This document shows positions 46,716 through 64,000 of a stretch of DNA of 64,000 nucleotides, one piece after another. The notes under the pieces are model-generated. The model searched no databases and was not told the origin of the DNA. It saw nothing but the letters and a program-made list of their open reading frames with translations. A program made the position numbers and the translations under genes. How positions within the stretch are numbered: position 1 is the first letter of the stretch; every line of letters starts with the position of its first letter. This stretch comes from Lophium mytilinum (taxonomy: Eukaryota; Ascomycota; Dothideomycetes; Mytilinidiales; Mytilinidiaceae). The stretch lies in the NCBI GenBank assembly GCA_010093605.1, contig MU004181.1, positions 1,860,001 to 1,924,000 of the forward strand, given 5' to 3'.

Positions 46716-47138
46716 CAATCACGTGCCATCCCTTTCTATGTCGCGAGCGAGGCCCAGTTTAGGCTTTCACTCACAAGTAGTCCACGCATTAACTCGTATG
46801 CAGTTATAGTTACACTCACGCGCAAAACTATTCTTGAAAATTCGAAGCTAGGAACACAGATGCAGAAAGATGCCGGTTCACCTGCGTAGACGTCAGGGAT
46901 GTCGGCGCGTTCCGATGTTGAGATCGACCACTACGCATCGCACATAAAAACAACATCCCCTCCAAGATAACTAACCAGCTTTTCCCACTGACAGAGCCCT
47001 CTCTCAACCACTTCAATTGAATGTGTGGCGAATTGATTTCCAGATAGTTCTGAGTCTTGGAATCAAAAGAAGAAACACCTTCTCTTCACTTCCCCACTAC
47101 CCCTCTAGGAGATCCGACCTCAAGCCATTTCTCGCCGT

Positions 47139-47633
47139 ATGCCGGTCCCCTCAACCTCTACGCAAGCAATCCAGCGGCTATCAACCCTCTCCTCCCATCT
47201 CGAACCATCTCCCGCTTCCGCGACCTCAAACCCTCCCACCATGTCCACCGCTCCTCGACCCCCCATAACCTGCCACGTCCTCGACACCACCGTCGGCCGT
47301 CCCGGTGCCAACATCCCCGTAACCCTCACGCTCGTATCTCCATCTTCAACAGCGAGTGCCTCCTTTACGTCTATCACGAACTCCGACGGACGCGTCACGG
47401 CGTGGAAACCTGCCTCAGATAGCCACACCTCCGATCTTGCGAGTGTCTTCCAGGAGCCGACGGAGCAGGTGTGGGCTCTGATATTCGATACACTAGAATA
47501 CTTCAAGGAGAAGGGGGTGGATGCGTTCTTCCCGGAGGTGGAGATCAAATTCGTGGTGAGGAGCAAGGAGGAGCATTATCATGTACCTGTGCTGCTGGGG
47601 CCGTTTGGGTATACGACGTATCGGGGGAGTTGA
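47139..47633 (+). CDS. 5-hydroxyisourate hydrolase (transthyretin-like)
   Basis: Intronless, 164 aa. The enzyme hydrolyses 5-hydroxyisourate, the product of urate oxidase, in purine degradation. The core matches the transthyretin-related family: ITCHVLDTTVGRPGANIPV with the active-site His at residue 46, SDGRVTAW, HYHVPVLLGPFGYTTYRGS and the diagnostic C-terminal YRGS. A second ATG at 47241 would give the minimal 130-aa core. The longer start is preferred because residues 13-21 (RLSTLSSHL) fit the peroxisomal PTS2 signal exactly, and peroxisomal location is known for this enzyme in other eukaryotes. No other urate gene is adjacent. Confidence 0.93.
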   Translation: MPVPSTSTQAIQRLSTLSSHLEPSPASATSNPPTMSTAPRPPITCHVLDTTVGRPGANIPVTLTLVSPSSTASASFTSITNSDGRVTAWKPASDSHTSDLASVFQEPTEQVWALIFDTLEYFKEKGVDAFFPEVEIKFVVRSKEEHYHVPVLLGPFGYTTYRGS

Positions 47634-48126: not shown

Positions 48127-48886
48127 TCAACCCCTCTTAATCGCCTCCGGCTTCTCCGCCCCCAACAACGGCTTAAACCCGGGATCCCCCTTCTCCATCG
48201 CCCGCTTATACGCCGGCCTCTCCCCCACCCTCTCCAACCAGCTCACCACATTCGGATACGGCGTCAACTCAAACGGATTAAACTGCCTTAACCCCGTCAG
48301 ATTCCACACCGTCATCAGATCCGCCAGCGAAAACTCGTCTCCCGCAAGCCACTTGCTTTCCCCCAGCCGGTCGTCCACCATTTTCGCCGCGAGCTCGAAC
48401 CGCGCCTGCACGCCCTTCGCGGCGGGGTTCGCGGGGTCCACCTGCGCGAACGCGAACATCATGACGCGCCCGGTCGAGGGGCCGAGCGTGCCGTTGGCGA
48501 AGTGGCGCCAGAAGACGTAGTCGGCGAAGTTGGGCGCGGAGGGGGCGGGCACGAGGGCGTTGGGGGTGGGCGCGTATTTGGCGAGGAGGTATTCGGTGAT
48601 GGCGTCAGTTTCGGCGAGCTTGACGGGGCCGTCGTAGATTATGGGGGCGGTGCCGGAGGGGTGGCTGGGTGGAAGAGAGGTTAGAATTGTGGATTTTGCG
48701 AAGAATGGGAAGAATGGGAGGGGTTAATAGGGAGCTGGCTTACAGGGCTTTGTACTCCGGCGGCGCGAGTAGAGTGTGTTTATCGCGCTGGTAGAGTTTT
48801 AATTCGTAGGGGATGTTCAGTTCTTCACATAGCCAGATGATGCGCTCGGACTGGGAGCGCTGGAGGTGGTGGAGTATGATGGTCAT
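48127..48886 (-). CDS. Glutathione S-transferase
   Basis: Two exons, 48886-48744 and 48664-48127, with a 79-nt intron, 226 aa. GSTs conjugate glutathione to electrophiles or act as peroxidases, and isomerases of this fold occur in fungal metabolite pathways. The thioredoxin-like N-terminal domain contains MTIILHHLQRSQSERIIWL and the cis-proline region HPSGTAPII, with ETDAITEYL for glutathione contact. The alpha-helical C-terminal domain contains WLAGDEFSLADLMTVW, the conserved N-capping and hydrophobic staple region. Length is normal. It neighbours the MFS transporter and may belong to the accessory region, but nothing shows this directly. Confidence 0.93.
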
Positions 48887-49349: not shown

Positions 49350-51357
49350 TCACATATCTGTAGGGTAGCTACTTCGGGCCCTGATCTGAGGGCCCCATTT
49401 GAATAACACCCATGGAATGGGTAGCATGGCTACTGAGATGAATCCGAGAAGGCTGGTAGCCCATCCAATGCCCAAGTTATCGTACACTAAATTATATTTA
49501 GCTACAGTAAAGCCATTTGGAAGAACAAAAACTTACTCTGAATGGTGAACAGCGGGAAGACGGCGCCGAGGGTGTAGCGAAGAATTCCATTGGCCGCAAT
49601 TGCAGACGCTCCGTTCAAAGGGCCATACACATCGATCAGGTAAAGAGCAGTTGCGATCTATTTTACGGTTAGCTTATCTAGATCAGTTGTAGAGAAGGTT
49701 TCATAGCGCTTACGAAGAGATTCAAATTGCCCCATGCAAATGGAATTGCACCAACAACAGGAACAGCCCAGTGTACTCCGTTATCAGCGGTCCATGCAAA
49801 CCAGAATAGACCAATTGGAAGGCCCAAACTGCCCATCATGGCGACGTAGAGTCGATGCTCTGGTGCTGCGTGTTTGCGACCTTCCGCTATGGCCTGCTTA
49901 TACTTCTTTTGGTATACCGTCCTGTCAATTACAACTGCTGAGAAGCTACTGATGACAACTCCAAGGCCGATAGCGAGGAACGTTAGACCGGTTTGAGAGA
50001 CCGTGAAGTTGTATGGTGGAGCTTCGAAGACGACCGGGAAGGCGGCGAAGAAGGCGAAGAGCACGGAGAAGGCAAAGGCCGTATACATGGAGAGGAATAG
50101 GACTATGGGCTAGATGGTATGTCAGCAATGCTGTGTAGAGAATGTAGAGACATGTTTCAGGGATGTTTAGTCACATGGCCATTTCCTCATGAATTCTCTC
50201 ATATGGGAATGACCCGCAACCAATACAAGTAGTAAATTGAGTAGACTTACTTCTGAATACAACATATGAACAGGCCTAATCAAAGTGACTGTAAGTAGGA
50301 ACTTGATCGCTGCAACTCCAGTTGGTCCTTTGGGACCTTCCAGTCCGCGTTTTGCGGCGCGACGCCTGAGAAGAATCTTTTTGTAGGTTTCACTCATGAA
50401 CAGCCCAGGGATCCATGCCGCGAGAGAGATGAAGAGGATACACCACTGGGTCCATCTCCATCCCTTATACTGCGCCGCGAATCCACCAATGAATGGACTG
50501 TGGCAAACGGTCAGCAAGCTGTCAATATTATAGCTGAAGGATTGGTGGATGTAGTACATACCCAAGTGCAGGGCCTGCGAATGGTGCCATTAAGAAGAAA
50601 GAGGTTGCTATAGCCCTCTGGCGCGGCGGCCAGATGTCAGCATTAGTTCCGGCGCCAACTGCAAGGACAGGACTGCCGAAGAAACCTGCGAAGAACCGGC
50701 ACACCAACAGCGAAGCAAAAGAGTTTGAAAAGCCTGCGCCGAGAGTGAAGAGCATGGAAACCGGGAGAGTAGTTCTGTAGACGATATTTCGTCCGAGGCT
50801 CTCGCTGACTGGTGCTGCCAACACCGGACCAAACCCTAGGCCAACGACGTAGACTGTGAGACCGACTAGAGCTGCGGTTGAAGAAACGTTATATTTTTCC
50901 ATGATCTCCGATACTGCCGGGGTATACATGGCGGACCCAATGGTACTAAGAAAAGTTAGCAGCAGCTTCGCAGATGTTGACAGCTCAGGGCAGACAGAAG
51001 GACGGAGCTAGAGCGGGTTAATACTAACACTGCGAATCCATAAAGACCTGGAACTGCCGTATGGTAGGACTTCTTCAACATCGACCAGTTTTGGGGGTTC
51101 TCAGGATCTGAAGGTCCATCCCAGTCTTGGACGGTGACAACTTTGGTGGCTGGCGGAAGTTCATTTTCCGGCTTCTCTGTCGTTATAGGCTCGAAGTTTG
51201 ATATTGCTTCTTCTTCGTCCCTAGGATGGATGTCTGATTCCTCATATGCTCGATCCGTCCCCGCCTCCAGGTCTTTGTCGTCTTTCTCCAGGTCAAGCAT
51301 GCTGTGCGACGAATACTCTGATCGGTAACGCTCCTCTCCTATTTCTTTTGCCTCCAT
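49350..51357 (-). CDS. Major facilitator superfamily transporter (DHA1-like)
   Basis: Six exons on the minus strand: 51357-51029, 50945-50562, 50497-50251, 50109-49714, 49657-49537 and 49486-49350; 537 aa, phases consistent. The N-terminal 90 residues are cytosolic, acidic, and end in the DHA1 hallmark VQDWDGPSDPENPQNWS. Twelve membrane helices follow. Motif A-like sequence occurs after helix 2 (GPVLAAPVSESLGRNIVYRT), and the antiporter-type helix 4-5 region includes RFFAGFFGSPVLAVGAG. A charged central loop separates the halves (LLRRRAAKRGLEGPKGPTG). The last exon ends RARSSYPTDM. The likely role is proton-coupled export of polyamines, drugs or a metabolite made by the adjacent redox genes, which is inference from context. 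Confidence 0.92.
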
Positions 51358-52677
51358 GAGGCCTTGACTACGTGATAAGCGTTGAGTTCCAGAGACCTGC
51401 AGTAATTTTGTTTTATCCGAAAGAATCTCAGGGAGCAGGCTGGCACGGAGGAGCTTGATGCTGAAAGTGAGGAGTAATGGATGAATGGATGATTGTTCGA
51501 ATGACTGACTATCGTAGTTATATGTGGAGACGAAGCATGTTTATCTTGTCAGCCAGTTCGCCTGCAGGCTGAGCTGTGACGCATTCGTAGGCGATTCAAC
51601 GCCATCAACTCATCGATTATTCGAATGGCACCCGAGGCTTCGTTCCTCGAGCGAAAGGCGTGTGGATGTTTGTTAGTGGGCACATACTAGATCAGGATTG
51701 GTTGAAACTTGGTCCTCGGCTCTTTTGTGCGATAAAGTAATCATGAAGACGAGGAGCGCGACTAATCAGAAATGCCGGGAACCATGAATCTCGGAAACAA
51801 ATCCAAGAGAAGACTGAGAGACGGCCTGCATAAGCATGTTGGCGCACTGCCGTCATGATTCTCGGGCCTAATATGATGCAAATAATTCTTGCGTGCAGTT
51901 GAGGACTGCTCGTGTGAGATGAACACAGGCGGCTCCGGATTCTCATTCGAAGAACGACAAAGGGATTACTTAACAGGCAAGCCCGACTATTCTCCGAGCC
52001 CTGAATTTGACTGATTATAGAGCGGTGCGGGCGTAGAAACTGCGCGCGCGATTGTGAGGGTTTCTTGTCGTGGAAATACTGGAGATAATTGAAGGTAAAC
52101 TCGCCCCTGGACAGGGGTAATCAGCACGTGATAACCTGATCGATACGGGCGGGTTGGGGCAGCTGCTGCGCTAGGCTTATACGGGTAATGGGCCGTTTAA
52201 CATGAAGGGGGCACTCTCAGCTAAACCGCCATATTACGTACTCAATCTAAGCCAGAAATTCACACCTCCTCGGAACCACTACACTCCACACACACATCCA
52301 TTCCATCTCTAATACCCTGGACTTACTTGTGAAATGCATTGAGGATTTTCTAGAAGTCATGAGTTCTTTCATATTCTAATACGTGGTACTTACTACAGTA
52401 TTTCCCTAGGCCGTCTCGGATCGCGAGTGCGGGGTGTTCCCCAAGCACGATCTTTCACTTACCCCACGACGAGCTTTAAGGAGGGGTCCCATCTCGCTCT
52501 TTCATCCTGCTAGATTGGTCTCGTGCGTATGTGGGGTTTTACCTGTCCGATCGCTCGAGAAAAAGTCCATTGCGAATATGAGGAAGGCAATTTGCCGCGC
52601 AAGAAGATTGCCAATGCCAAGCTCACACAACGCTACATCGCCCCAATCGCAAGCAACTGTTTACTTTCAGTGTAATA
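51358..52677. promoter_or_regulatory. Divergent intergenic region between MFS transporter and FAD oxidase
   Basis: About 1.3 kb between two genes that point away from each other. ATGTGGGG lies at 52529-52536, 142 bases before the FAD oxidase start, and CCCCACGAC near 52462 adds a related core. GTGGGG fits the CreA consensus SYGGRG. CACGTG occurs at about 52126. No gene was recognised. Confidence 0.5.
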
Positions 52678-54160
52678 ATGACCGTTTGGACTCGACCTTC
52701 GGCTCCTCAACCTGCCAATCACTGCGAGTATGAGCGCCTTCGTCGGTTATACATCAACGCGGATGTAAGAGAAGCATATCCAAGAGAGATCCATCTTGTA
52801 GACTCTACCTCTGAAGTCCAAAATGCTGTCAAAAGCGCAGTCAACTCCAACAGCAAGATTGGCGTCCGTTCAGGAGGACATACATTTTCAAATCCTTCGT
52901 TGATACATGATGGCATTCTTGTTGACACAACAAATTTGCACCGAAAAGTGGAGTACGATCCAGTCACACACCATATCTGCTATGGCCCTGCTGTGCGCGT
53001 AGTAGAAGCTTCGGAGATGTTACAAAAGCTAGGACGGTTCTTTCCTCACGGTCATGCTCCAACGGTAGCCTTAGGAGGTTTTACTCTTGCAGGAGGGCAA
53101 GGCATGTTCATGCCTACCTGGGGCCCAACAGTCGGCGATTGGATTGTCAAAATGGAAATTGTCACACCTGACGGCGATGTCAAGACAGCAAGCATGACGG
53201 AAAATGCAGACCTCTTCTGGGCGGCTCGCGGCTCTGGCCAGGCCTTCTTCGGTATTGTGACCAGGATCTGGGCGCGTACCATGCCTTCACGACGCCTCTT
53301 CATGAGAACGATGCTCTTCGAGGTCAAAGACAATATCGAGGATCTTCTGCAATGGGCTCTGAAAACTAGCTGCATCATACCAAGATGGGGTACCGAGACA
53401 GCCATGTTCACGAGCTATTCGCTTACGCGAACAACCGACACCATTCCGGCCCCTTCAAAGCAGCTTTTTGGGCTTGGCTCTACTGCATATGTGGATACTT
53501 TGGAGGAGGCGAAAACACTCTTGAGTGCTTGGGATCATATTCCAGCTTTCTTGCAAGGATCAATCATCGATGCGGGATCGGTCGCCGAAATGTCTTGGGC
53601 GGCATACTTCGAGCTTCAGGAGGCCGTGACACCGTCAACGCCTGGGAACAATTGGCAAATCAACAGCTTCCTTAACGATCCAGAAATGCCTCTGGAGCAA
53701 CTCGTCAAAGCCATCAAGCCCGCGATGACCGAATTTCCCACGCCCACATCGCTCGCCTGCATATACTGTTGCCACAGCTATCCCGACGACAACGACCACC
53801 TCTGTGCCTTGCCACAGCAATACTACATATCCACCTTCACGCACTGGAAGGGCAATTCCTTGCAACCCAAAGTATACGAGCCAATGGCGGACATATACGC
53901 CACCTTGTACCCACTGGGCGTTGGGATGTATGTTGCGGACTACAATCCGTTCGATGAGAGGCAAGCGAATGTAAGTTCCAATGTTCTAAAAGAGTCGCAG
54001 CTATATACTCACTAGATGTTTTCAAATATAGGTCAAAGTGTGGACTGATAAAGGCTTGCAGCGATTTATGGAAATTCGTGCAAAGTACGATCCACAGGGA
54101 CTGTTCCCTGGTTTCAATCCATTTGAGCGCAGGGCTAAGCAGATCGGAATGAAGTTGTAA
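52678..54160 (+). CDS. FAD-binding (berberine bridge enzyme-like) oxidoreductase
   Basis: Two exons, 52678-53970 and 54032-54160, with a 61-nt intron (GTAAGT..ATATAG), 473 aa. The family (FAD_binding_4 plus BBE domain) oxidises alcohols, amines or ring carbons and is frequent in fungal metabolite clusters. RSGGHTFSN carries His68, the usual site of covalent FAD attachment. The second, cysteinyl attachment motif is not apparent: the region reads PTWGPTVGDWIVKMEIVTPDG. The C-terminal BBE segment is complete after splicing (YVADYNPFDE, then RAKYDPQGLFPGFNPF). There is no signal peptide, so the enzyme is probably intracellular. The substrate is unknown. Confidence 0.92.
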
Positions 54161-54757
54161 AGGTTACTTGACTAGACAGAACCTGATATATTGGAGTTAT
54201 ACAGCGTCTTGCGATGAGCCTGAGCTATGAGCACACAGTACGCTATCTTACAGTTTCGTGAGTCTGATTGCACAACCATCAACTCAAGCAATGACTAAGT
54301 ATGCGACAAGCCTCATCAAACGTGATGCACATCTGCCCAGTCATCAGGTTTCTACCTGTTCATCCTCGCTTCAACTTTGAAAATACTCCATCTCTGAAAG
54401 TCTTCGAATATATCGGCCTTTCCAAGCCGTGTGTGCAGCTTATGCATGATCACGTTGAAAGCGTTCTACTGCTTCACCCCACGAGGTAAAGGGTAAGGAT
54501 GCCTGCTATTGCTTCTCCCACAGAGCAGTCGAAGGCGAAGGTAAACCGGCGGGGTGGGGAAAGCAAGAGTACGAGTTGGGCCTAGTCGAAGCATGCTCCA
54601 CATGCGGGGTGAGCCACAATACCCCACACTCGCTTTCTCCCCGAGTCTGGGGATTGCTGGAGTAGCGGTTGGAGTCAGCTGATCAACGCTACAGAATCTT
54701 TTTAGCTTTTGGACACGAAGCTCTTCCCAAGCCCGAAAGAAATTTAGCACCTTCACG
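54161..54757. promoter_or_regulatory. Cytochrome P450 upstream region
   Basis: Contains CTCCACATGCGGGG at 54596-54609 (about 150 bases before the P450 ATG), CCCCACAC at 54622-54629 and CTCCCCGAGTCTGGGG near 54638. The first is an inverted pair of CreA-type cores (GTGGAG and GCGGGG) and recurs identically at 60496-60509. Confidence 0.5.
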
Positions 54758-56494
54758 ATGTATACGACCACTCTTCTGTTTGGCGCGGCGCTTCTTACGC
54801 TGTTATATGCCTTTGCTACGCGGCGTCGTGTGCCAAGAGGCTACGAAACTGTTCCAGGGCCACAAGGCTCACTTCTCTTTGGCCACACATCTCTGCTGGG
54901 TGCCGAACCTCAGGCCCAACTCAAAGCATGGGCGAAAGACTTTGGTCCTCTTTTCAAGCTTCGCCTAGGCTGGGAGGACTGGATCTTTGTCAACGAGCCC
55001 GGCGCCATCAGGGAAATTTTCGACAAACAGTCAAGAGTGACATCTGGCCGCGCTCCTATGCCTGTTCTTTCTGATATCTTATCTGGCGGCAAGCGATTCT
55101 TGTTGCAGACGTACACTCCGGAGTGGCGGAAGCTGAGAACTATCGTGCACAAGCTGCTCACGCCAAAATCATCGTCTACCTTCAAACCCAGCCAAGAATT
55201 TGAGACCAAGCAGCTTCTGCACGACATATACACCAGCTCTAAGGCAGGCGATCAAGAGCGTTTCTATATGCATGTTAGGAGGTATACGACTTCAGTAATC
55301 ATGACATCCATCTACGGGCGGCGAATCCCCGAATGGGTGAGTTAGAACTCTTGGATCTCAATTGCGCGCGGCGAGCTGACCCAATTCAAGGAATGTGAAG
55401 ATGTGGAAGAGATTTACGGCCTCATGAAGGATTTCTCGGACGCGGCAAGGCCAGGCGCATACATTGCGGACGTTGTACCACCTTTAGCAAGGCTACCGAC
55501 CTGGATGCAGTGGTGGAGAAAGTCTGCTTTGAAGGCGTACGAAAGGCAGGCTTCAATATGGCTGAAGTACTGGAACCAGCTCCGCGCTCAGATCAAGATA
55601 AAGACCGCCCCGGAATGCTTCGCAAAGCAATTCGTCGAAGATGTCGACCAAAGGGACGACATTGACGAAGTGACGGCGGCGTTTGTGGCAGGCAGTAAGT
55701 GCGCCAAGCTCGAAATAGCATATAAGCTTCTAACCTAATATTCAATTCTAGCGATGATCGAAGCTGGATCGGAAACTACAAGTTCATCAGTGAACAGCGG
55801 TTTCAAATATCTCGCGGCCTACCCAGAAGTTCAACAAAAGGCACACGAGGAGATCTCGCGCGTCATTGGCGACGGCCGGTCTCCAACCTTTGACGACGAG
55901 GACAATCTGCCATACATTCGGGCGATGGTGAAGGAGATCTTACGATTGAGGCCGGTTACAAACCTGGGCTCCCCACATTATACCACCGAGGATATGACTT
56001 ACCAGAAGTACTTCATACCCAAGCACACCGTCGTTGCAATCTGTCAATACGCCGCCCATAACGACGCTAGATACCCTGAGCCTGAAACTTTCCGACCCGA
56101 GCGGTATCTTGACCACCCACTCAAGGCAGGGGCATATGCCGCGCACCCGGATCCCTACGTGCGAGATCACTTTACCTTCGGGGCTGGAAGACGTATCTGC
56201 CCAGGCATGCATCTGGCAGAGAATAGCATGTTCATCGTCCTCGCAAAGATTCTGTGGGCCTTTGAGATTAGACCTGTGGTGGGACCGGACGGCAAGGAAG
56301 AGAATGTGGACGTGTCGGACCAAGCGTACGAGCCCGGTATCAATACGCTGCCGAAGCCTTATCGCATGCGCTTTTTGTCGCGAAGTCCAGCGCGGGAGGC
56401 GAAGATGCTTCAAGAATGGAAAGAGGCTGAGTCCACGGGTTACTACCTTGGAAATGTTAGGGTGGACGCGGCGGGCATGGTTCTGTCTGCATAG
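54758..56494 (+). CDS. Cytochrome P450 monooxygenase
   Basis: Three exons, 54758-55336, 55391-55694 and 55752-56494, 541 aa. It is a microsomal class II P450: an N-terminal anchor (LLFGAALLTLLYAFA) is followed by basic residues and the proline hinge VPGPQG. The I-helix oxygen-activation motif is rebuilt across intron 2 (AGTMIEAGSETTSSS). The K-helix ExxR (EILRLRP), the PERF-like FRPERYL and the heme-binding FTFGAGRRICPGMHLAENS are present, with the thiolate Cys at residue 444. The C-terminal tail after the heme domain is somewhat long. The substrate is unknown. Context suggests hydroxylation of the same scaffold as the neighbouring flavoenzymes. Confidence 0.95.
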
Positions 56495-57101
56495 AGAAGG
56501 TTAACGAGGACGGGTGAGGCTGGAAGAAGTTGGCTTGTGTTGAATGAAGAGCGTAAATCGTTGCGGCCCTTTTACTGAGATAGTACATAGAGTCCCCGAA
56601 CTTTCCGTTTGGTTGTATATAGAGACTTTTAAACGAGTCATTCTGGCGGCTCGAGTCAGTCATCGTCATCAGCCTGTCAACGCAAAAGACAAATGTACTC
56701 TCATATTGGTGGAACTCTGCTTAGATATTTTATGATTCACTCGGGGACGATCGACAAACTACTGGCACTACAAAGCATGCTACATTCCGCACTCTAACAA
56801 CGGCCTATGAGCAGAGCATCCGAACGTCAAAACCTTTGAGTTGAAGAGTGAGCCTTGTTACTCTTCCTTGCTAAAAGTCTCACCTCGCATTGCATTCAAA
56901 ACTTCGCATTGGTATCCATACATCTTTAACGAACTTTGCAGAAAGTGATGCATTTGACGAAATGGTCTCCTAGCAGCGGAGCAAATGAGCATCGGAGTTC
57001 GCTGACAATTCGTCTTAGACCGAACGAAGCGATTGAATGTTAATTAACTAAATACAGCTGTAACTAAAACACCCACCGTTCGGCATCGCTCACGAGACTT
57101 T
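56495..57101. other. Intergenic region between convergent P450 and FAD monooxygenase genes
   Basis: About 600 bases holding two 3' UTRs. No gene or repeat was recognised. Confidence 0.4.
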
Positions 57102-58616
57102 CTATACCGCTGACGATACAGGGGTAAAGTGCTGCGAGAAATCATATTTGAGAATGCTCACGCCCTAAATCTGCGTTAGCTGATCCGTTGACCAATGCAG
57201 ACTTGGCGTCCAAGATAGCTGAAGGTTTTGTTAAACGTTACTTACCTCATTGAGCTGTCTCGCCAGCTCGTTGTCTGACTCGGCTTTTAGACAGAGCTTG
57301 AAGAACTCATCGTCCTCCTTAGCTTTCTCTGGATCATTCTCAAACAGTCGCCGGAAGTTGCTGCTGGATATCGGGTCCACGACCGTCTTGAATTTCTCCA
57401 TCCGCTTGTCGGAATAGATGTCTAGGACTTCGTCGCCTGCTTTGCCATGATGGATAGCAAGCAAGCAGTCACATAAGCCACCAACATCGACGATACCACT
57501 CGTCAAACCCATCCCACCGCTGGTATTCGACAAGAGTCAGACTGGTATTACTAAGCGAATCGTATACTGAATCAAGACAGACACTTACAAAGGATTGCAC
57601 AAGTGCGCGGCATCTGCAGCGAGGAGAAATCTTCCAACACGCATCTTCTGAGCTAAGCGTTGGTGGACTTTGTACGGGCTGATATTAGCCAGCTTGTATG
57701 AATTTGGGTCTGGATGACCGGGAAGGATCTCCTTGAATCTCATGGGCTGTCTTGCTATAAGCTCTTCCCGCGTAAGACCAGTGATGTCCCCGTAGGTCAC
57801 CCGCCAGAGGCCGTCGTTGGATATCCTCGCGGCCATGAACCAATTGTCCGGATGAACGATGAAATTGGAGTCGTTCCACCCGTATTTCTTGAAGTCATAG
57901 TAGGTCTAGTGAGTTTTCTTGTCAGTGAAGCAAATCACAGCCGGAATGGTGACATTAATACTCACGTTCGTGGCAACAACCTGTTTGTCCCATGTGAAGC
58001 CTGGGAACTGCGCGTCGCCGAAAAGACATCGCCTGATTTTGCTGTTGGCGCCATCACAGCCGATAATATAATGCGCTGTTAGCCGCTTCTCTCCATCCTT
58101 CGTTTCCACATCCACCCAGGCTTCTTCCTCATCTTGCCCTATGTTCACAACATTGTGGTCGAACAGGATCTCAACATTATCCTGCTGATCAAGATAGCGC
58201 TTCAATATCATGGACAACTTGTCCAAGGGAAGGCAGACCATCCTGTCCGGTGCGTCTCCGAGGATGTCGGCATTCAACGATGCTATCTCTTCACCGTTGA
58301 TCTTCCTCCAGCTTACGCCATGAGGCTGAAACCCTTCGGCTTTGATATCCGCGATGACGCCGGCACGTACCAGCTCTGTTACCGCTGGTGCTGCATAATG
58401 TGTTGCGCGGGGATTTGTGTCTAGGCCTTGGCCCATGTCTACCAGAGTGACAGGTACGCCATTTTGGGACAAGATTAGGCCTGCTAGGAGACCTGCTGGT
58501 CCTGCCCCAACAATGATGATCTGTTTGGTGTTTGGTCAGTAGGAAATTTCGCAGGTTCAGTTTCTGAATCTGGCACTTACGTTCTTGATGGCGCTGACGT
58601 TGTGAAGTGAACCCAT
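57102..58616 (-). CDS. FAD-dependent aromatic-type monooxygenase
   Basis: Five exons on the minus strand: 58616-58581, 58520-57966, 57905-57589, 57519-57246 and 57164-57102; 414 aa. It resembles the PheA/TfdB and salicylate-hydroxylase type flavoprotein monooxygenases that use NAD(P)H and O2 to hydroxylate or open aromatic rings. The dinucleotide motif IIIVGAGPAGLLAG begins right after intron 1. RATHYAAPAVTEL and the DG motif region (IIGCDGANSKIRRCLF) are present. The second FAD motif reads LLAADAAHLCNPFGGMGL, with Ala where GD-motif glycine is usual. The 20-codon last exon was found from the GATTTAG acceptor and keeps the frame. There is no transmembrane segment. The substrate is unknown. 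Confidence 0.9.
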
Positions 58617-59200
58617 GACGAGAAGTTTGAGAAGCAGGACAAGGACCTGTTGAAGCGCGTTTAAAGTATCTTGAATCTGTGCGCAAGGATTACACTACTA
58701 TTTTATCTTATGGCTAGCGTTAAGACTCATGCCATGTCCGCTGAAATGTGTGTGTGGGTTAGCTAAAACAGCATGCCACCATTTGGAAGCTGTTTGCGGG
58801 GACGATCACACGATGTGGGGGATTCACGGCACAGTTCCTACTTATCGCATGCTTTTGGTTTATACGGCCAATGAATTGCGATAATGGTATACATGAGGCT
58901 TTTGCGGGGCCAAAGAACTGGAATGAAGGGATGCTTTGGTGGAAAGATCTCAGGGCCTGGAAAACTTTCCATTTTCTGGAATGAACCAGTTCGTGATAAG
59001 AGCTATTATATGTACACGAGAAGCAACTAAAGTAGGCCGTAAAAGCTTCTGGGGCACATTCGAGAGCTTGCGAATGATTTGAGTTGATTTGTTTTGCTCT
59101 GCGGCTACATTCAAACCCAGGTGCGAGTCGATGCCGGGATGTGTGATTCGGGGAGCATTCTTGCCACCTCATACATAGAAAGAACTACAGCAAACATATT
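58617..59200. promoter_or_regulatory. FAD monooxygenase upstream region
   Basis: ATGTGGGG at 58813-58820 lies about 200 bases upstream of the minus-strand monooxygenase start, and TCGGGGAG occurs near 59151. The rest contains the 3' UTR of the NmrA-like gene. No gene was recognised. Confidence 0.45.
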
Positions 59201-60201
59201 CTACGATATAGTTACATATGAAGGGTAGGGTGTATCGTCTGACAAGTCGCCGTATGCGCTCCAGTGCCTGCCAACACGTGTCTGCTCCTCAGCCTCATCT
59301 GCAATAGCAATAGCCAAATCCGCAGCAGTGATACCGTGCAGCCGGCCCTCCAGGTCTGACGCATTATCTTTGACCGCAGATTTGAGGGGTATCTCATCAA
59401 GAATGACCTCATACCTGCCGCTTCGTCGCCCGGGGCGGTAGAGAGCCGAAGGGGAGATGTATGTCCATCGGAAAGACGTGTTCCCATCGAAGAACATGAA
59501 GGATGTCCTGCAGGCTGTAACGAATACCAGTGCAGAGTCGTTGCTCGCTGCTTTTTCTTCGTATGCAGCGATGGTAGCGCGAGACTCCTTTGTTGCTTTG
59601 CCCTCCTTTTGCAGCTTGCGTGCGTTCCTGTAATCACGCAGTGAAGATCCCAATGAGCCTAAGCGGGCCTCCATGTATGAGACATGCGCTTCGCTGTCAG
59701 CTATGCCGCGCCTATATGCGAGCCAGAACGCCTTGGTCTCGCACACGCTCTGGAATGGCTTATCGGGCATGTGGAGGCTTCCGCAACCCCCAATCATAAT
59801 GAAGTAGTTCACCTTGGAAAATTTGGCTGCGAGCACGATCTTTCGAGTGAGCTCGAGGAAGGTCTCTAAAAGGACAAACCTATTAGTTCCCAAAACACAC
59901 ACTGCACGAGATACCCAGATGAAGACTCACGGTATTGTAACGCCCCCTCTCCTGCAGTATGAGGCCCATACTCGTTCACAAGGACGTCGAGGTTTTTGAA
60001 CGCCTCAGCAAGCTCGTGAATGCTGGCGTTGGCAATATCAATGCTTCGAGGCTCATAGCTAGGGTGCTTGCCTAGCTTCGATGGTGAACGCGAGATGCCT
60101 ACAATCTTGTGTCCTCTGTTGAGTAGCTCGACGCAAAGATAACTGCCGCCAAAGCCGGCAGGGCCAATAACACCAATGTTCAAGCTCTTTCTCGAAGCCA
60201 T
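59201..60201 (-). CDS. NmrA-like / atypical short-chain NAD(P)-binding protein
   Basis: Two exons, 60201-59931 and 59865-59201, with a 65-nt intron, 311 aa. The N-terminal Rossmann fold has the dinucleotide loop IGPAGFGGSYLC and basic NADPH-type residues (GISRSPSKLGKH). The continuation DVLVNEYGPHTAGEGALQY, then FIMIGGCGSL, matches NAD(P)H-binding NmrA/SDR-a proteins. The C-terminal substrate domain contains TYISPSALYRPGRRSGRYEV and ITAADLAIAIADEAE, as in NAD-dependent epimerase-like YwnB/NmrA families. It may be a reductase, an isomerase or a redox sensor; a canonical YxxxK pair is not obvious. It is tightly placed between two other cluster genes. Confidence 0.88.
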
Positions 60202-60701
60202 ATTCGCTTAACCTTGTCGGCACAGTACTTGCTTTCAACGTCTGCTGAGTCGTACGTTTGGATTGAGTAAGGGGCGGGGAGACATGCAAGGATCTGCAGC
60301 GAAAGATAATCAGCCGAGCACGTGCGCGTGATACGCGAAAATCTCAAGCTTCAAAGCCGTTAGAATTATTCTGCCGAGCACTGGGTGAAGTGATGGATGC
60401 ATGCTTCGAACGTGGGGCCCCAGAGCCAAGCCCCACATGTTTCTTTGCAGACGACCCCACCTACTTGGGGTAATCTTGGGGTAATCTCTGAGATACTCCA
60501 CATGCGGGGAATGAAGTGCAACTTGTGGGATAGGATGGCAAGATGGGCGCTGAGCAGTGGCTGATCTGAGGTAGCTGACCATGTAGGTAAGATACTTTGA
60601 GTCTCTGACAGTTCCGCTAAACTGCACGTGATGTGTTCGATACTTCTCGATCACTGTGAGTGCAAGGTGCGCCTGAATCGACAGTGACCTATGATACTTC
60701 G
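60202..60701. promoter_or_regulatory. NmrA-like gene upstream region
   Basis: CCCCACAT at 60431-60438 and CTCCACATGCGGGG at 60496-60509 lie 230-310 bases upstream of the minus-strand NmrA-like gene. ACTTGGGGTAATCTTGGGGT at about 60463 is a short GGGGTAATCTT duplication. The rest is 3' UTR of the hydrolase gene. Confidence 0.5.
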
Positions 60702-61844
60702 TCAAGGCGCCTCCCCAGCACGTACAGCTTGCAAGAAATGTTCTCGGTTCTCAGTCGGAAGGATGGACATGAGCACTTCATCACTGCCCTGTCGCAACCA
60801 CTCAACATCGTGTGCCATAGCAACATGCATTCCGTGCCCTTTTTCAGCTTCTTGGAGTCGCCGTAAAGTGTCCTTGGCTGCGTTCACATCGTCGTGTAGG
60901 CATGCTTTGCCACCTGGGACATCGAAATAAGCAAAGTCTGCATGTCCGTCCAGTAGCTCCCTAAGACAGCTTTTGTAAGCTCAGTTCATGGGCAGAGGGC
61001 TGTGTGGTAAGTACCTTGAATGGCAGCAGTCGCTCGCCAGGACAATCCAAGAGGGCGCATCCCCATTCGAATTTAAGCGTGCTGCAGCTGCAAGATTCCC
61101 AGGCATATGACCAGGCGCGTCTATGACCATGAAAGAACCGTCTCCAAAAAAGTCCAATGCTCTCTCAAATGGTCCGAATTGTTTCCATTCACCTGTGATC
61201 TCTGCCCAGTTCTCTGAAGCGTAGCCATCGCTATCGAAGAACCTTCCATCCCAAAGGCTCTTCGTCGTTGCGACTCCGTTGTCTAGATGTCCAGGTGAAC
61301 AGTGGGTCTTGGTACCTCCTCCGAAAAGCCCCTTGGCTTTAGGAAATTCGCTTTGAATTGGCCGGCAATGATCCCAATGTGCATGGCTATACTACTAGTC
61401 AGAGAACAGCATAACTTGGATGAATGATGTGCTGGGTACCTGAATATCACAGTGTCTATCTGTTCACAACTGACGTCTAGTGCTTCGAGCTGCTCATGCA
61501 GTGTATTTCCAGGGCCCACAGGATTCGCGCTCCCCCATTGTACATCTAGTACCAGAGGTGTATAAGCCGATCGATCCTACTCCGTCGGCCGTTAGTCTGG
61601 GAGAAGAGCTTCAAGCTGCTGTGCGGCCACTGACTGAGCTAATGCCAACATCCCAAAGAATGTGACGGCCAGAGCTTGGATGAAAAACATGAAAACACCA
61701 GTCGTACAGACGGAACGAGTCTGGTTTGGCGTTCGCGTGCAGTTTAGACATATCCGCTGTTGAGAAACTACCACCATCTAAGAGGGTAACGCGCACCGTT
61801 GCCGATTCGTCAGTGAGACCAGATTCATGATTCGAAGATGGCAT
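60702..61844 (-). CDS. Metallo-beta-lactamase-fold hydrolase (lactonase-like)
   Basis: Four exons on the minus strand: 61844-61635, 61576-61440, 61386-61015 and 60960-60702; 325 aa, phases consistent. The zinc-binding signature HAHWDH (residues 117-122) spans the exon 2/3 junction with the preceding serine. The other ligands are probably in DAPGHMPGN and LASDCCHS, with the late histidine in AMAHDVEWL. Fungal members of this group are annotated as lactonases, thioesterases or glyoxalase II-like enzymes. Here a lactone- or thioester-cleaving role in the local pathway is inference. There is no signal peptide. It shares a 300-base divergent promoter with the dehydrogenase at 62.1 kb. Confidence 0.92.
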
Positions 61845-62148
61845 TGTGTGATAGTGGCAATACAGTTGAGATCTGATACGCAAGATTTCTGCAATAAGTT
61901 CGAACGCGCGAACATTTACAGGCGACGTTGATAAATGTGAAAATGTGGGGGTGTCCCCCGAGGACGCTAATCATTACGGGGTCAGACGCACCAACTGCCC
62001 CCTTGGGACTGGGGTTCGCGGGCTTGAGCTCTGACTGTGGTTCAAAATAAATGGCCTTGTGCCCCTGGCGCTGCTTCGGTGATGTTCCAGCACACCTTTC
62101 AATCATTGGGTCCCTTTACGTGACCTACATAATTCTCAAGAATCGTAG
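61845..62148. promoter_or_regulatory. Divergent promoter between hydrolase and dehydrogenase
   Basis: 304 bases between oppositely oriented genes. ATGTGGGG at 61943-61950 is followed by GTGTCCCCCGAGG, giving facing G-rich and C-rich cores. Both genes could be controlled from here. Confidence 0.55.
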
Positions 62149-63279
62149 ATGGAGCAGAATATCGGCTTTATAGGTGACAGCCGCTGAAATTTGCTCGCTA
62201 TAGATGGATCAAACTAATAGTATCAAAGGACTCGGAGCCATGGGCTATCCAATGGCTAAGAACATAAGAACCAAGATGAACCAACAATCAACTCTATGGG
62301 TCTATGATGTACAGAAAGAGGCCTGCGAGAGATTTAAGCAAGAATTCATGGGTTATGGACCGATATCTATCGCGAACTCAGCAAAAGAAGTCGCCCAGAA
62401 CGCTTTGACCATCGCCACGATTGTACCTGCGGGCCACCATGTCCGTCAAGTCTTTTTAGATGAATCAGATGGCGTAATAGCCGCGAAAAGATTGCCACAT
62501 GACAAGGAGCGACTATATCTGGAGTGCAGCACCATTGACGTAGCGACGGCTCGAGATGTTGCGCAGAAGCTCGAGACCATGGGTATGGGGCGTTATGTTG
62601 ACTGTCCGGTATCTGTACGTCTATGTCCCTCCGATGCTTGAACGTTATTTGATGATCTTCCTCTCGCAGGGCGGCGTGCCGGCAGCAGATTCTGGGACAC
62701 TGTCGATGCTGGTAGGAGCCACGAAACCCGCTCCTGCAGAAGCTGAACAAGGTGTGGGTAAGCGATTGCAAGCTTTACTGCTATGGATGGGCGATGCGAA
62801 GAAGCACTTCTACTGCGGTGGTGTAGGCTCAGGCTTGGCTGCAAAGATATGCAACAACTATCTGTCGTGTACGATCCTACTGGCTAACGCCGAAGCCATG
62901 GCGACTGGCGTCAAGCTTGGTTTGGACCCGAAACTCTTGTATGAGGTCATTGCAAACTCCACGGGACAGAATTTCATGTGCGATCACGTCTGTCCCGTTC
63001 CCGGCGTCGTCCCTCATGCCCCGAGCAGCAACGGGTATAGACTGGGATTCAAGGCGCAGATGTTGTCCAAAGACGTCGGGCTAGGGGTTGAGGCTGCGAA
63101 GAGTGTTAATATTAAACCCTCTATTGGCGAAGCTGCTGTAGCCGTGTTTGATCAGGTTGGTAAGGATGAGCGATGTATCGTAAGTTTTGCTTGCTCAGGA
63201 TAGCATTGAAGCCCCTTCTGATGCTGTCTAGGACCGCGATGCATCTGTCGTGTATCGATTTCTTGGGGGGCCAGAATAG
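62149..63279 (+). CDS. 3-hydroxyisobutyrate/6-phosphogluconate dehydrogenase-like enzyme
   Basis: Four exons: 62149-62173, 62229-62614, 62670-63179 and 63232-63279; 322 aa. The 25-nt first exon was found because splicing creates the expected N-terminus MEQNIGFIGLGAMGYPMAKN, the NAD(P)-binding GxGxMGxxMAxN motif. YLECSTIDVATARDVAQ and CPVSGGVPAADSGTLSML are the substrate-binding motifs, and GSGLAAKICNN has the catalytic lysine at residue 196. The C-terminal all-helical dimerisation domain includes LGFKAQMLSKDVGLGVEAA. The family oxidises beta-hydroxyacids, classically in valine breakdown. A cluster copy may process a branched or beta-hydroxy acid intermediate. Length and motif order are normal. 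Confidence 0.93.
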
Positions 63280-63497
63280 GCCATGTCTCGATAGCGGACG
63301 GCAGAAGTCCTGCAGGGCCCACAAGGTTGGAGGGCGAATCTTGAGGTCAGCTAGACGAGCCGACTGAGTGTTCAGAGTGCCTGAAGGCACGCTCGCTAGG
63401 ATTATTTCTAGTGCGGCCGCGGTAGGTCAACCGTAGATATACGGACAAAGAGTATGAAACAGTTTCCACAGTCGTCCGTGTCCAGTCCCCAGTTCTG

Positions 63498-64000
63498 TCA
63501 GCGAGCAAAGGTCGCTGAAGACCTTTCCCCAAAACCTCTAGCTTTCCTTGAGCTACTTTCGTAGACCTTTGCAAGATCCATCAGAAGGCGGCCCATTCTC
63601 GTAGTGATTCCCCAAACCCAGACCTAGGATTGGATTAGCTGAATGAACACTACGTGGACTAAACAGCGCGACATACGTCGGTCATCAATGAAGCCCAACT
63701 CTTTACAATAGCAGCTGCAAGCGAATCGTTCTCGCTGCACTCGATGTCCATTCCCTCAAGCGCTACTTTGACTTGTGAGATGATCTCGGCTTCCGCATGG
63801 GTAAGTGGAGTGTCGCTTGATTGATCCTCGAGACAGTGGATCCATTTTGAAAGCAGTAGAACTTGGCAACACTCATCAGTAAAGGTAAAGTAGATCGGCT
63901 TGAGCTGGGAACTTACCGCAGCCCCAGCCTGCGACAGCATGCTCGACGCTCCAACTTATCGCTGCCGTCTTCTGCACAAGCAGATAGCCCGCTTTTGACG
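63498..64000 (-). CDS. C-terminal part of a probable fungal transcription factor (truncated by window edge)
   Basis: Only the 3' end is inside the window. Proposed exons on the minus strand are 64000-63917, 63861-63677 and 63623-63498, about 131 codons including the stop, in one continuous frame. Visible pieces are KTAAISWSVEHAVAGWGC, then VLLLSKWIHCLEDQ, HAEAEIISQVKVALEGMDIE, and the end VWGITTRMGRLLMDLAKVYE. This helical C-terminus resembles the last part of fungal cluster regulators and Zn2Cys6-type factors, but the DNA-binding domain lies beyond the edge. Identification as a regulator is therefore tentative. Introns have GTAAGT and GTATGT donors. Confidence 0.55.

Follow-up and report, generated by a model that had tools for sequence, protein, structure and literature searches.

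At its right-hand end, a 64,000-nucleotide stretch of the Lophium mytilinum genome (the window: bases 1,860,001-1,924,000 of contig MU004181.1, here C1, of 3.85 Mb; the genome has 43.18 Mb in 24 contigs) carries eight genes for transport, redox and regulatory proteins that are the left third of one cluster of about 50 kb and 24 genes. We propose, with moderate confidence, that it is a co-regulated fungal cluster for taking up and degrading a para-substituted phenolic compound. The next 60 kb of C1 were read rightward (in the joined coordinates used below, 64,001 is the first base beyond the window), and 16 further genes follow TF1, the regulator gene that crosses the window edge, giving 24 genes in ~51 kb (Table 1). 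Gene boundaries are predictions from sequence alone, made with a small self-trained script and adjusted by hand; gene content, the integrity of residue motifs where checked (in proteins other than the MFS and NmrA-like ones), the cluster-wide enrichment of a promoter motif and the bacterial counterpart were all computed.

A first-pass annotation of the window had described a redox and transport group with no visible core enzyme, and had offered two readings, either the flank of a biosynthetic cluster that extends beyond 64 kb or a stand-alone catabolic or detoxification route that hydroxylates and opens rings and then cleaves a lactone. The lack of a core enzyme is true of the window and is an effect of its edge, because the ring-cleaving enzyme lies beyond it. 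The group does continue past 64 kb, but on the present evidence its kind is different from that of a biosynthetic flank, since the genes that follow include no annotated synthase but do include a maleylacetate reductase (MAR) and a dioxygenase for ring cleavage. The second reading had the catabolic kind right, but the eight genes do not stand on their own, as both the enzyme that cleaves the ring and the lower pathway are encoded outside the window.

The ring-cleaving enzyme belongs to the homogentisate dioxygenase (HGD) family. It scores 548.8 bits against the hmgA equivalog model (cut-off 510.75) and provides the ring-cleaving dioxygenase that characterizes a fungal aromatic catabolic cluster. 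The iron ligands His335, Glu341 and His371 and the catalytic His292 (human numbering) are kept, while the positions of human Arg347 and Lys353 are occupied by Tyr and Arg, respectively. Two more HGDs are encoded in the genome, on contigs C8 and C15. The cluster has this dioxygenase family in common with the homogentisate (tyrosine) pathway, from which it differs in that the separate copy on C8, probably the housekeeping one judging by its sequence, is nearer the human enzyme (54.8% identity, versus 50.4% for the cluster copy). The C15 copy lies in another catabolic-looking group (~33-47 kb of that contig), whose members, named by eye save the HGD, are an NCS1-type-looking transporter, the HGD-like dioxygenase with Gln at the His292 position, a fungal regulator, an NmrA-like protein, two isochorismatase-like hydrolases and a P450.

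The MAR, an iron-containing alcohol dehydrogenase (Fe-ADH) family member, matches maleylacetate reductases of the PDB at 2e-96 and 4.6e-96, with an unnamed iron-containing alcohol dehydrogenase ranking ahead (1.2e-100), and is the reductase found in pnp-type hydroquinone operons. The other MAR of the genome, on C2, is 75% and 64% identical to it by exon, and no catabolic neighbour is visible in its surroundings. The CMD protein reaches 136.8 bits with the PcaC model (cut-off 155.7) and an alpha/beta hydrolase 87.2 bits with PcaD (cut-off 255.85); because both scores are below the cut-offs, the two proteins are relatives of PcaC and PcaD and not members of these families.

The HGD, MAR, PcaC-like and PcaD-like genes, together with the lack of ketosynthase and condensation domains on C1, point to a catabolic set. 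None of the 21 ketosynthase matches or the 20 condensation-domain matches of the genome falls on C1; a polyketide or peptide synthase core was thus found neither in nor beside the cluster, as had been noticed for the window alone, and the biosynthetic flank was dropped as leading reading. No terpene synthase or other core is among the 24 modelled genes (23 scanned in whole or in part, P450 D judged by eye), no search by family having been made. The idea that the genes are the tailoring half of a specialised-metabolite cluster, with the synthase elsewhere or acting in trans, draws on the fact that P450s, BBE oxidases, MFS transporters and NmrA-like proteins are usual in such clusters, and on the PDB matches of the BBE-like oxidase, which include the biosynthetic enzymes EncM and SorD besides a glucooligosaccharide oxidase. 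This reading is disfavoured and seems quite improbable to us, as the ring-cleaving dioxygenase, MAR, CMD and PcaD-like genes share the same motif-bearing stretch and the nearest bacterial counterpart found, described below, has a PcpA-like hydroquinone dioxygenase.

The cluster encodes two flavin monooxygenases of the PnpA/HspB type (FADMO1 and FADMO2). Among PDB entries FADMO1 matches PnpA (6ain, 2.6e-72) and HspB (7da9, 7.6e-56), the next entry following at 5.9e-21, and is hence closer to these two than to the remaining structurally characterised flavin monooxygenases. PnpA is para-nitrophenol 4-monooxygenase and HspB is 6-hydroxy-3-succinoylpyridine 3-monooxygenase; both hydroxylate a substituted ring carbon and swap the substituent for oxygen, HspB freeing succinate semialdehyde. 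By analogy, and given neighbours of the ring-cleaving and 3-hydroxyisobutyrate-dehydrogenase (HIBADH) types, this suggests that the FADMOs eject a side chain to leave a hydroquinone. An alternative within the same frame takes as its analogue 4-hydroxyphenylacetate 1-monooxygenase, which performs ipso-hydroxylation with a side-chain shift; here the products would be of the homogentisate type.

Five families are paired, with one copy in each half of the cluster: FADMO1/2 (60% identity), the regulators TF1/TF2 (41%), P450 A/C (39%), HIBADH1/2 (38%) and the metallo-beta-lactamase-fold (MBL) hydrolases MBL1/2 (28%). MFS1 and MFS2 share just 22%. For FADMO1, for MBL1 (by score) and for TF1, the closest relative found genome-wide is itself a member of the cluster, in the case of TF1 its partner TF2; for HIBADH1 there is a near tie between the cluster copy (177.0 bits) and a copy on C7 (172.5 bits), both 42% identical. 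Around one paralog of FADMO (C3), one of HIBADH (C7) and three of MBL (C13, C3, C14) a second copy of the cluster was not seen by eye. Of the FADMO, HIBADH and MBL paralogs listed elsewhere in the genome, the two from different families that lie nearest to each other, a FADMO and a HIBADH on C7, are 46 kb apart.

That the grouping is beyond chance is indicated by a shared promoter motif and by the bacterial counterpart. De novo word counting in the gaps between cluster genes (gap counts omit gene models scoring 9 or less, including a 139-residue frame at 67.7-68.2 kb) yielded CCCCAC and CCCCGC, and the longer words CCCCRCA and TACCCCAC. CCCCRC occurs 52 times in these gaps versus ~11.6-11.9 in shuffled sequence (maximum 21 in 200 shuffles), CCCCRCA 26 times versus 3.3, and CCCCRCAT 17 times versus 0.8 (maximum 5); in the flanking gaps CCCCRC is found 44 times versus 36.3 and CCCCRCAT once versus 2.5. 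Over the whole cluster (50.57 kb) there are 21 CCCCRCAT where 2.5 are expected at the genome rate (Poisson p ~5e-13, optimistic like the other p-value given here, because the cluster in which the motif was counted is also the one from which it was derived, so that its form is fitted). Four lie in the rest of the joined 124 kb, and there is no CCCCRCAT between 30.7 and 52.5 kb. TACCCCRCA is present five times in the cluster versus ~0.6 expected. Across the genome, the longer words are about as frequent as the same patterns reversed (2147 CCCCRCAT in 43.18 Mb versus 1917; 500 TACCCCRCA versus 502), so the excess in the cluster is local.

CCCCRC is found in all 16 promoter-bearing gaps of the cluster (4.22 per kb) and in two of its seven convergent gaps (0.66 per kb; binomial p = 7e-4), whereas in the flanks it is found in 12 of 16 promoter-bearing gaps (0.98 per kb) and three of four convergent ones (1.58 per kb); under the first gene models 18 of 23 cluster gaps contained it. 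Neither the genome-wide rate nor the convergent-gap control is fitted to the motif. The regions around the paralogs, those of the C2 MAR and of C15 included, have four CCCCRCAT in 136 kb versus 6.8 expected, so the motif is not simply tied to the enzyme families. STRE (CCCCT) was also considered and rejected, being only mildly raised (44 versus a mean of 27.1 in 200 shuffles, of which the highest gave 45; its density is 2.88 per kb versus 2.42 in the flanks). CCCCRA is mildly raised as well (22 versus 13.0, maximum 22).

As to the protein that binds the motif, which we infer, the paralogous C2H2/Fungal_trans regulators TF1 and TF2 are the likely readers of CCCCRCA(T), with CreA as a rival. The predicted finger helices of TF1 (KRSEHCSRHE and ARRDLVKRHE) and TF2 (KRSEHCARHE and ARKDLVQRHE, read by eye across two introns) are near-identical, although the best-aligned remainder is 41% identical, and fingers of the RSEH type read GGGG. 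On the other hand, CCCCRC fits SYGGRG, the binding consensus of CreA/Mig1, which is a general carbon repressor, and catabolic genes are usual targets of CreA. The motif would then be a carbon-repressor site, and the genes of the cluster would have no more in common than repression by glucose; they might belong to two or more adjacent pathways with no relation to each other. We consider this rather unlikely: the other words of the consensus show no enrichment over shuffles (CCCCRG 12 versus 12.0, CTCCRC 19 versus 14.1, CTCCRG 13 versus 15.2), unlike CCCCRC and CCCCRCA, and the five families are paired across the two halves.

The bacterial counterpart was looked for in 72,556 plasmids, 428 records of which match FADMO1; of the 20 matches listed, 18 neighbourhoods were read, and the sharing of families was scored at E ≤1e-4. 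Conservation of the neighbours in relatives, proposed in the first-pass annotation as a check, is thereby partly answered, as seven of the same families stand side by side within ~11 kb on two Rhodococcus plasmids, R. qingshengii pLP337 (298 kb region) and R. rhodochrous pGD02.2.2 (150 kb region). Relatives of P450, MAR (39% identity to the fungal protein), HIBADH (29-30%), CMD (65% and 62%), FADMO (31-34%), SDR (28%) and MBL (28-29%, of the N-acyl-homoserine-lactone (AHL) lactonase family) are found there in the order MFS, P450, MAR, GntR, HIBADH, CMD, FADMO, SDR, P450, alpha/beta hydrolase, AHL-lactonase family, hydrolase, VOC, with a PDR/VanB-family reductase farther along. Independently, the same two records rank first and second of 507 when the fungal CMD is the query. 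The Rhodococcus plasmids differ in having a regulator annotated as GntR-family and a ring-cleaving VOC protein where the fungus has HGD; the R. qingshengii VOC protein, to which that of R. rhodochrous is 85% identical, matches PcpA (2,6-dichlorohydroquinone 1,2-dioxygenase) at 4.9e-66. In the Rhodococcus stretch read, the annotation includes no carboxylesterase, no BBE oxidase and no NmrA protein, and FADMO, MBL and HIBADH are single. No described function was found for these plasmid clusters.

In other FADMO neighbourhoods the likeness is smaller. A MAR relative is present in Massilia, Paraburkholderia and R. koreensis (an unannotated record with FADMO, MAR and SDR relatives), and a CMD relative in Sphingobium EP60837 pEP1, where P450, MBL, SDR, MFS and a succinate-semialdehyde dehydrogenase are known from annotation only. 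The remaining 12 share at most one further family each, two of them being nicotine clusters by annotation. In Rhizobium, the surroundings of relatives of MBL and CMD have little in common with the fungal cluster, and MBL1 has weak matches of the AHL-lactonase family in 43 plasmid records. A scan of bacterial chromosomes with the two FADMOs was uninformative, giving a single poor relative (Rothia, 26%), probably because it used two peptide patterns only. On plasmid 3 of Variovorax sp. SRS16 (4.8-10.3 kb) CMD and HIBADH are again paired, there with no FADMO, a PcaC-like CMD gene being directly beside a HIBADH relative; a gene of the AHL-lactonase family (annotation, Pfam) is nearby, to which fungal MBL1 and MBL2 have no match at 1e-4.

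Taking these results together, we infer the following catalytic order and substrate. The MFS proteins would move a para-substituted phenolic compound, whose side chain would be freed and oxidised by the carboxylesterases, the BBE-like oxidase and the P450s. Lactone intermediates would be opened by MBL1 and MBL2, and the hydroxy acids so formed would be oxidised or reduced by HIBADH1 and HIBADH2; decarboxylation of a lactone or keto acid would fall to the PcaC-like CMD protein. FADMO1 and FADMO2 would attack the ring carbon para to the hydroxyl, releasing the side chain to give a hydroquinone, the ring of which would be cleaved by the HGD-family enzyme; MAR would hand 3-oxoadipate-type products to central metabolism. 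TF1 and TF2 would probably govern these steps through the shared promoter word. More tentatively, and as a possibility that we hold with low confidence, the cluster may be a eukaryotic version of an undescribed pathway of the Rhodococcus-plasmid type, in which side-chain processing by MBL, HIBADH, CMD and P450 proteins is combined with PnpA-type ejection and the HGD paralog is a fungal dioxygenase for (substituted) hydroquinone. Esterases, lactonase-like enzymes, P450s and an MFS protein that could be an efflux pump would suit the detoxification of a plant or microbial phenolic, with the toxin disarmed and ring cleavage incidental; P450 D may resemble pisatin demethylase. The presence of a ring-cleaving enzyme and of MAR points instead to carbon use, and we regard detoxification as an unlikely account of the cluster, the two ideas being compatible.

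Several points weigh against the degradative scheme. The models of lactonases match MBL1 and MBL2 only far under their cut-offs (38.6 bits, 8.4e-10, and 48.1 bits with that of the AHL lactonase AttM, cut-off 390), and because of these scores 'lactonase' is for both a guess at family level; the HxHxDH metal motif of AHL/4-pyridoxolactonase-like enzymes is present in MBL1 (HAHWDH) and MBL2 (HMHYDH). Among the modelled cluster genes there is neither PnpCD nor a PcpA/LinE-type hydroquinone dioxygenase, unmodelled genes having had no dedicated search, nor an aldehyde dehydrogenase for 4-hydroxymuconic semialdehyde. A true HGD yields maleylacetoacetate, for which MAR is unneeded, so that either this HGD copy uses a hydroquinone that lacks the acetyl side chain or the cluster is the end point of two routes; maleylacetoacetate isomerase and fumarylacetoacetase were not seen among the modelled cluster genes. 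Only two of the 18 bacterial neighbourhoods share at least three further families with the fungal cluster, and on those two plasmids the P450, SDR and MBL matches are weak (24-29% identity). WCCCCRC, counted over genes and gaps, has ~1.0 site per kb at 52-100 kb, 0.75 at 100-124 kb and 0.46 at 0-48 kb, the right flank being set apart from the cluster only by the longer word and the gap counts. Finally, CCCCRC is a subset of the CreA/Mig1 word, so a common motif need not imply a dedicated regulator, and two adjacent pathways sharing regulation could account for the set.

Compared with known systems, the apparent para-nitrophenol/hydroquinone (pnp) operons of Paraburkholderia terrae pPT365 and a Massilia putida plasmid are like the fungal cluster in combining a PnpA-type monooxygenase with MAR; they have a two-subunit dioxygenase (annotated as hydroxyquinol, read here as hydroquinone dioxygenase) and an aldehyde dehydrogenase, whereas the fungal cluster has HGD plus lactonase-like, HIBADH and P450 genes. 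Gentisate, catechol and hydroxyquinol catabolic clusters have been described in fungi, for example Scedosporium, and resemble ours in having transporter, regulator, monooxygenase and ring-cleaving dioxygenase genes, with a P450 close to the maleylacetate reductase of the hydroxyquinol group (PMC8283699). The catechol cluster has five genes there and the hydroxyquinol group four (PMC8283699), versus 24 in L. mytilinum, among them an HGD-family dioxygenase together with MAR, a pair of PnpA-type monooxygenases, and MBL and HIBADH genes in two pairs. The existence of specific fungal hydroquinone dioxygenases is called unclear in an excerpt of PMC7842363, and a hydroquinone A route of Scedosporium is assigned, in the portion consulted, to hydroxyquinol dioxygenase and maleylacetate reductase (PMC12366324). 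The toluene genes of the toluene-degrading black yeast Cladophialophora immunda are clustered, and the clusters do not match this one as far as the available text goes (PMC5595782). No description of a cluster of PnpA-type monooxygenases, MBL, HIBADH, HGD and MAR was found in the literature searched (open literature and few subscription papers, most of the latter being outside), and the first-pass annotation knew of none with exactly the combination and order of its eight genes. Fungal aromatic catabolic clusters are already known, and the present gene combination, as far as the literature searched goes, appears new.

The eight window genes listed in the first-pass annotation were all recovered at their places by open frames, Pfam and spliced models. 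The MFS1 stop, at 49350, coincides with the left edge drawn there. In the BBE-like oxidase the His of the covalent-flavin motif RSGGH is kept. MBL1 matches Lactamase_B at 6.6e-05 (23.4 bits, cut-off 22.7), and TF1 has two C2H2 fingers, only its 3' part (63498-64000) being inside the window.

Table 1. Genes of the cluster and CCCCRC promoter sites (joined coordinates).
Feature	Position	Strand	Details
MFS1 transporter	49350-51357	-	6 exons; MFS_1 on two exons; last exon hand-read
BBE-like FAD-linked oxidase	52678-54160	+	FAD_binding_4 6.6e-21; splice read to 54032
Cytochrome P450 A	54758-56494	+	p450 1.4e-54; heme motif FGAGRRICPG, heme Cys present
FADMO1, FAD_binding_3 monooxygenase, PnpA/HspB type	57102-58616	-	GxGxxG and CDGA present
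NmrA-like NAD(P)-binding protein	59201-60201	-	NAD_binding_10 5.5e-11
MBL1, MBL-fold hydrolase, lactonase-like	60697-61844	-	4 exons; spliced model
HIBADH1, 3-hydroxyisobutyrate-dehydrogenase-like	62149-63279	+	NAD_binding_2 3.5e-32, NAD_binding_11 9e-22; K[IL]CNN present
TF1, C2H2 + Fungal_trans regulator	63498 to ~66589 (C1:1926589)	-	Fungal_trans 3.3e-18
SDR	68456-69224	+	
P450 B	69776-71386	-	
Carboxylesterase	71849-73765	+	
P450 C	74230-75966	-	
CMD protein, PcaC-like	76426-76839	+	
FADMO2	77184-78778	-	
HIBADH2	79303-80354	-	
MBL2	80705-81643	-	
Zn2Cys6 regulator	81988-83919	+	
PcaD-like alpha/beta hydrolase	84775-85662	+	
TF2, C2H2/Fungal_trans	85939-88894	-	
MFS2	89782-91452	+	
HGD, homogentisate-dioxygenase family	92022-93552	-	TIGR01015 over cut-off
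Maleylacetate reductase (MAR)	94714-95848	-	
Carboxylesterase-like gene	~96.9-98.1 kb	+	
P450 D	~98.6-100.4 kb	+	start and end by eye, from open frames only
Three CCCCRC sites, MFS1/BBE divergent promoter	52434-52536		
Five CCCCRC sites upstream of P450 A	54477-54622		
Three CCCCRC sites upstream of FADMO1	58801-58909		
Five CCCCRC sites upstream of NmrA-like gene	60279-60509		
CCCCRCAT site, MBL1/HIBADH1 divergent promoter	61943-61950	-	

To the left of MFS1 there is a GST gene (48127-48886), preceded by a frame at 47109-47633 that looks hydroxyisourate hydrolase-like (transthyretin-like, by eye). Beyond 100.4 kb the genes are, by eye, apparently unrelated to the cluster, another MFS gene among them. 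Just right of the cluster, at ~101.2-101.5 kb, the translation has KGFRKG/GSERV-like repeats, possibly a minisatellite; a simple repeat of short units broken by a run of N is found at ~106.6-106.8 kb, and at 113.3-116.4 kb a peroxidase-like domain is, by eye, apparently fused to WSC-like cysteine-rich repeats.

Redox genes that had no core enzyme become in this way a testable pathway, a proposed regulon of 24 genes, and the case indicates that a window edge may conceal the defining enzyme of a cluster. The analysis offers as candidates a regulator pair with its binding word and a fungal hydroquinone-type dioxygenase. Moreover, the parallel with Rhodococcus suggests that a fungus and actinobacteria have one route for a shared environmental substrate, which may have been arrived at by partial gene transfer or by convergence, and identification of the substrate in either the fungus or Rhodococcus would inform both.

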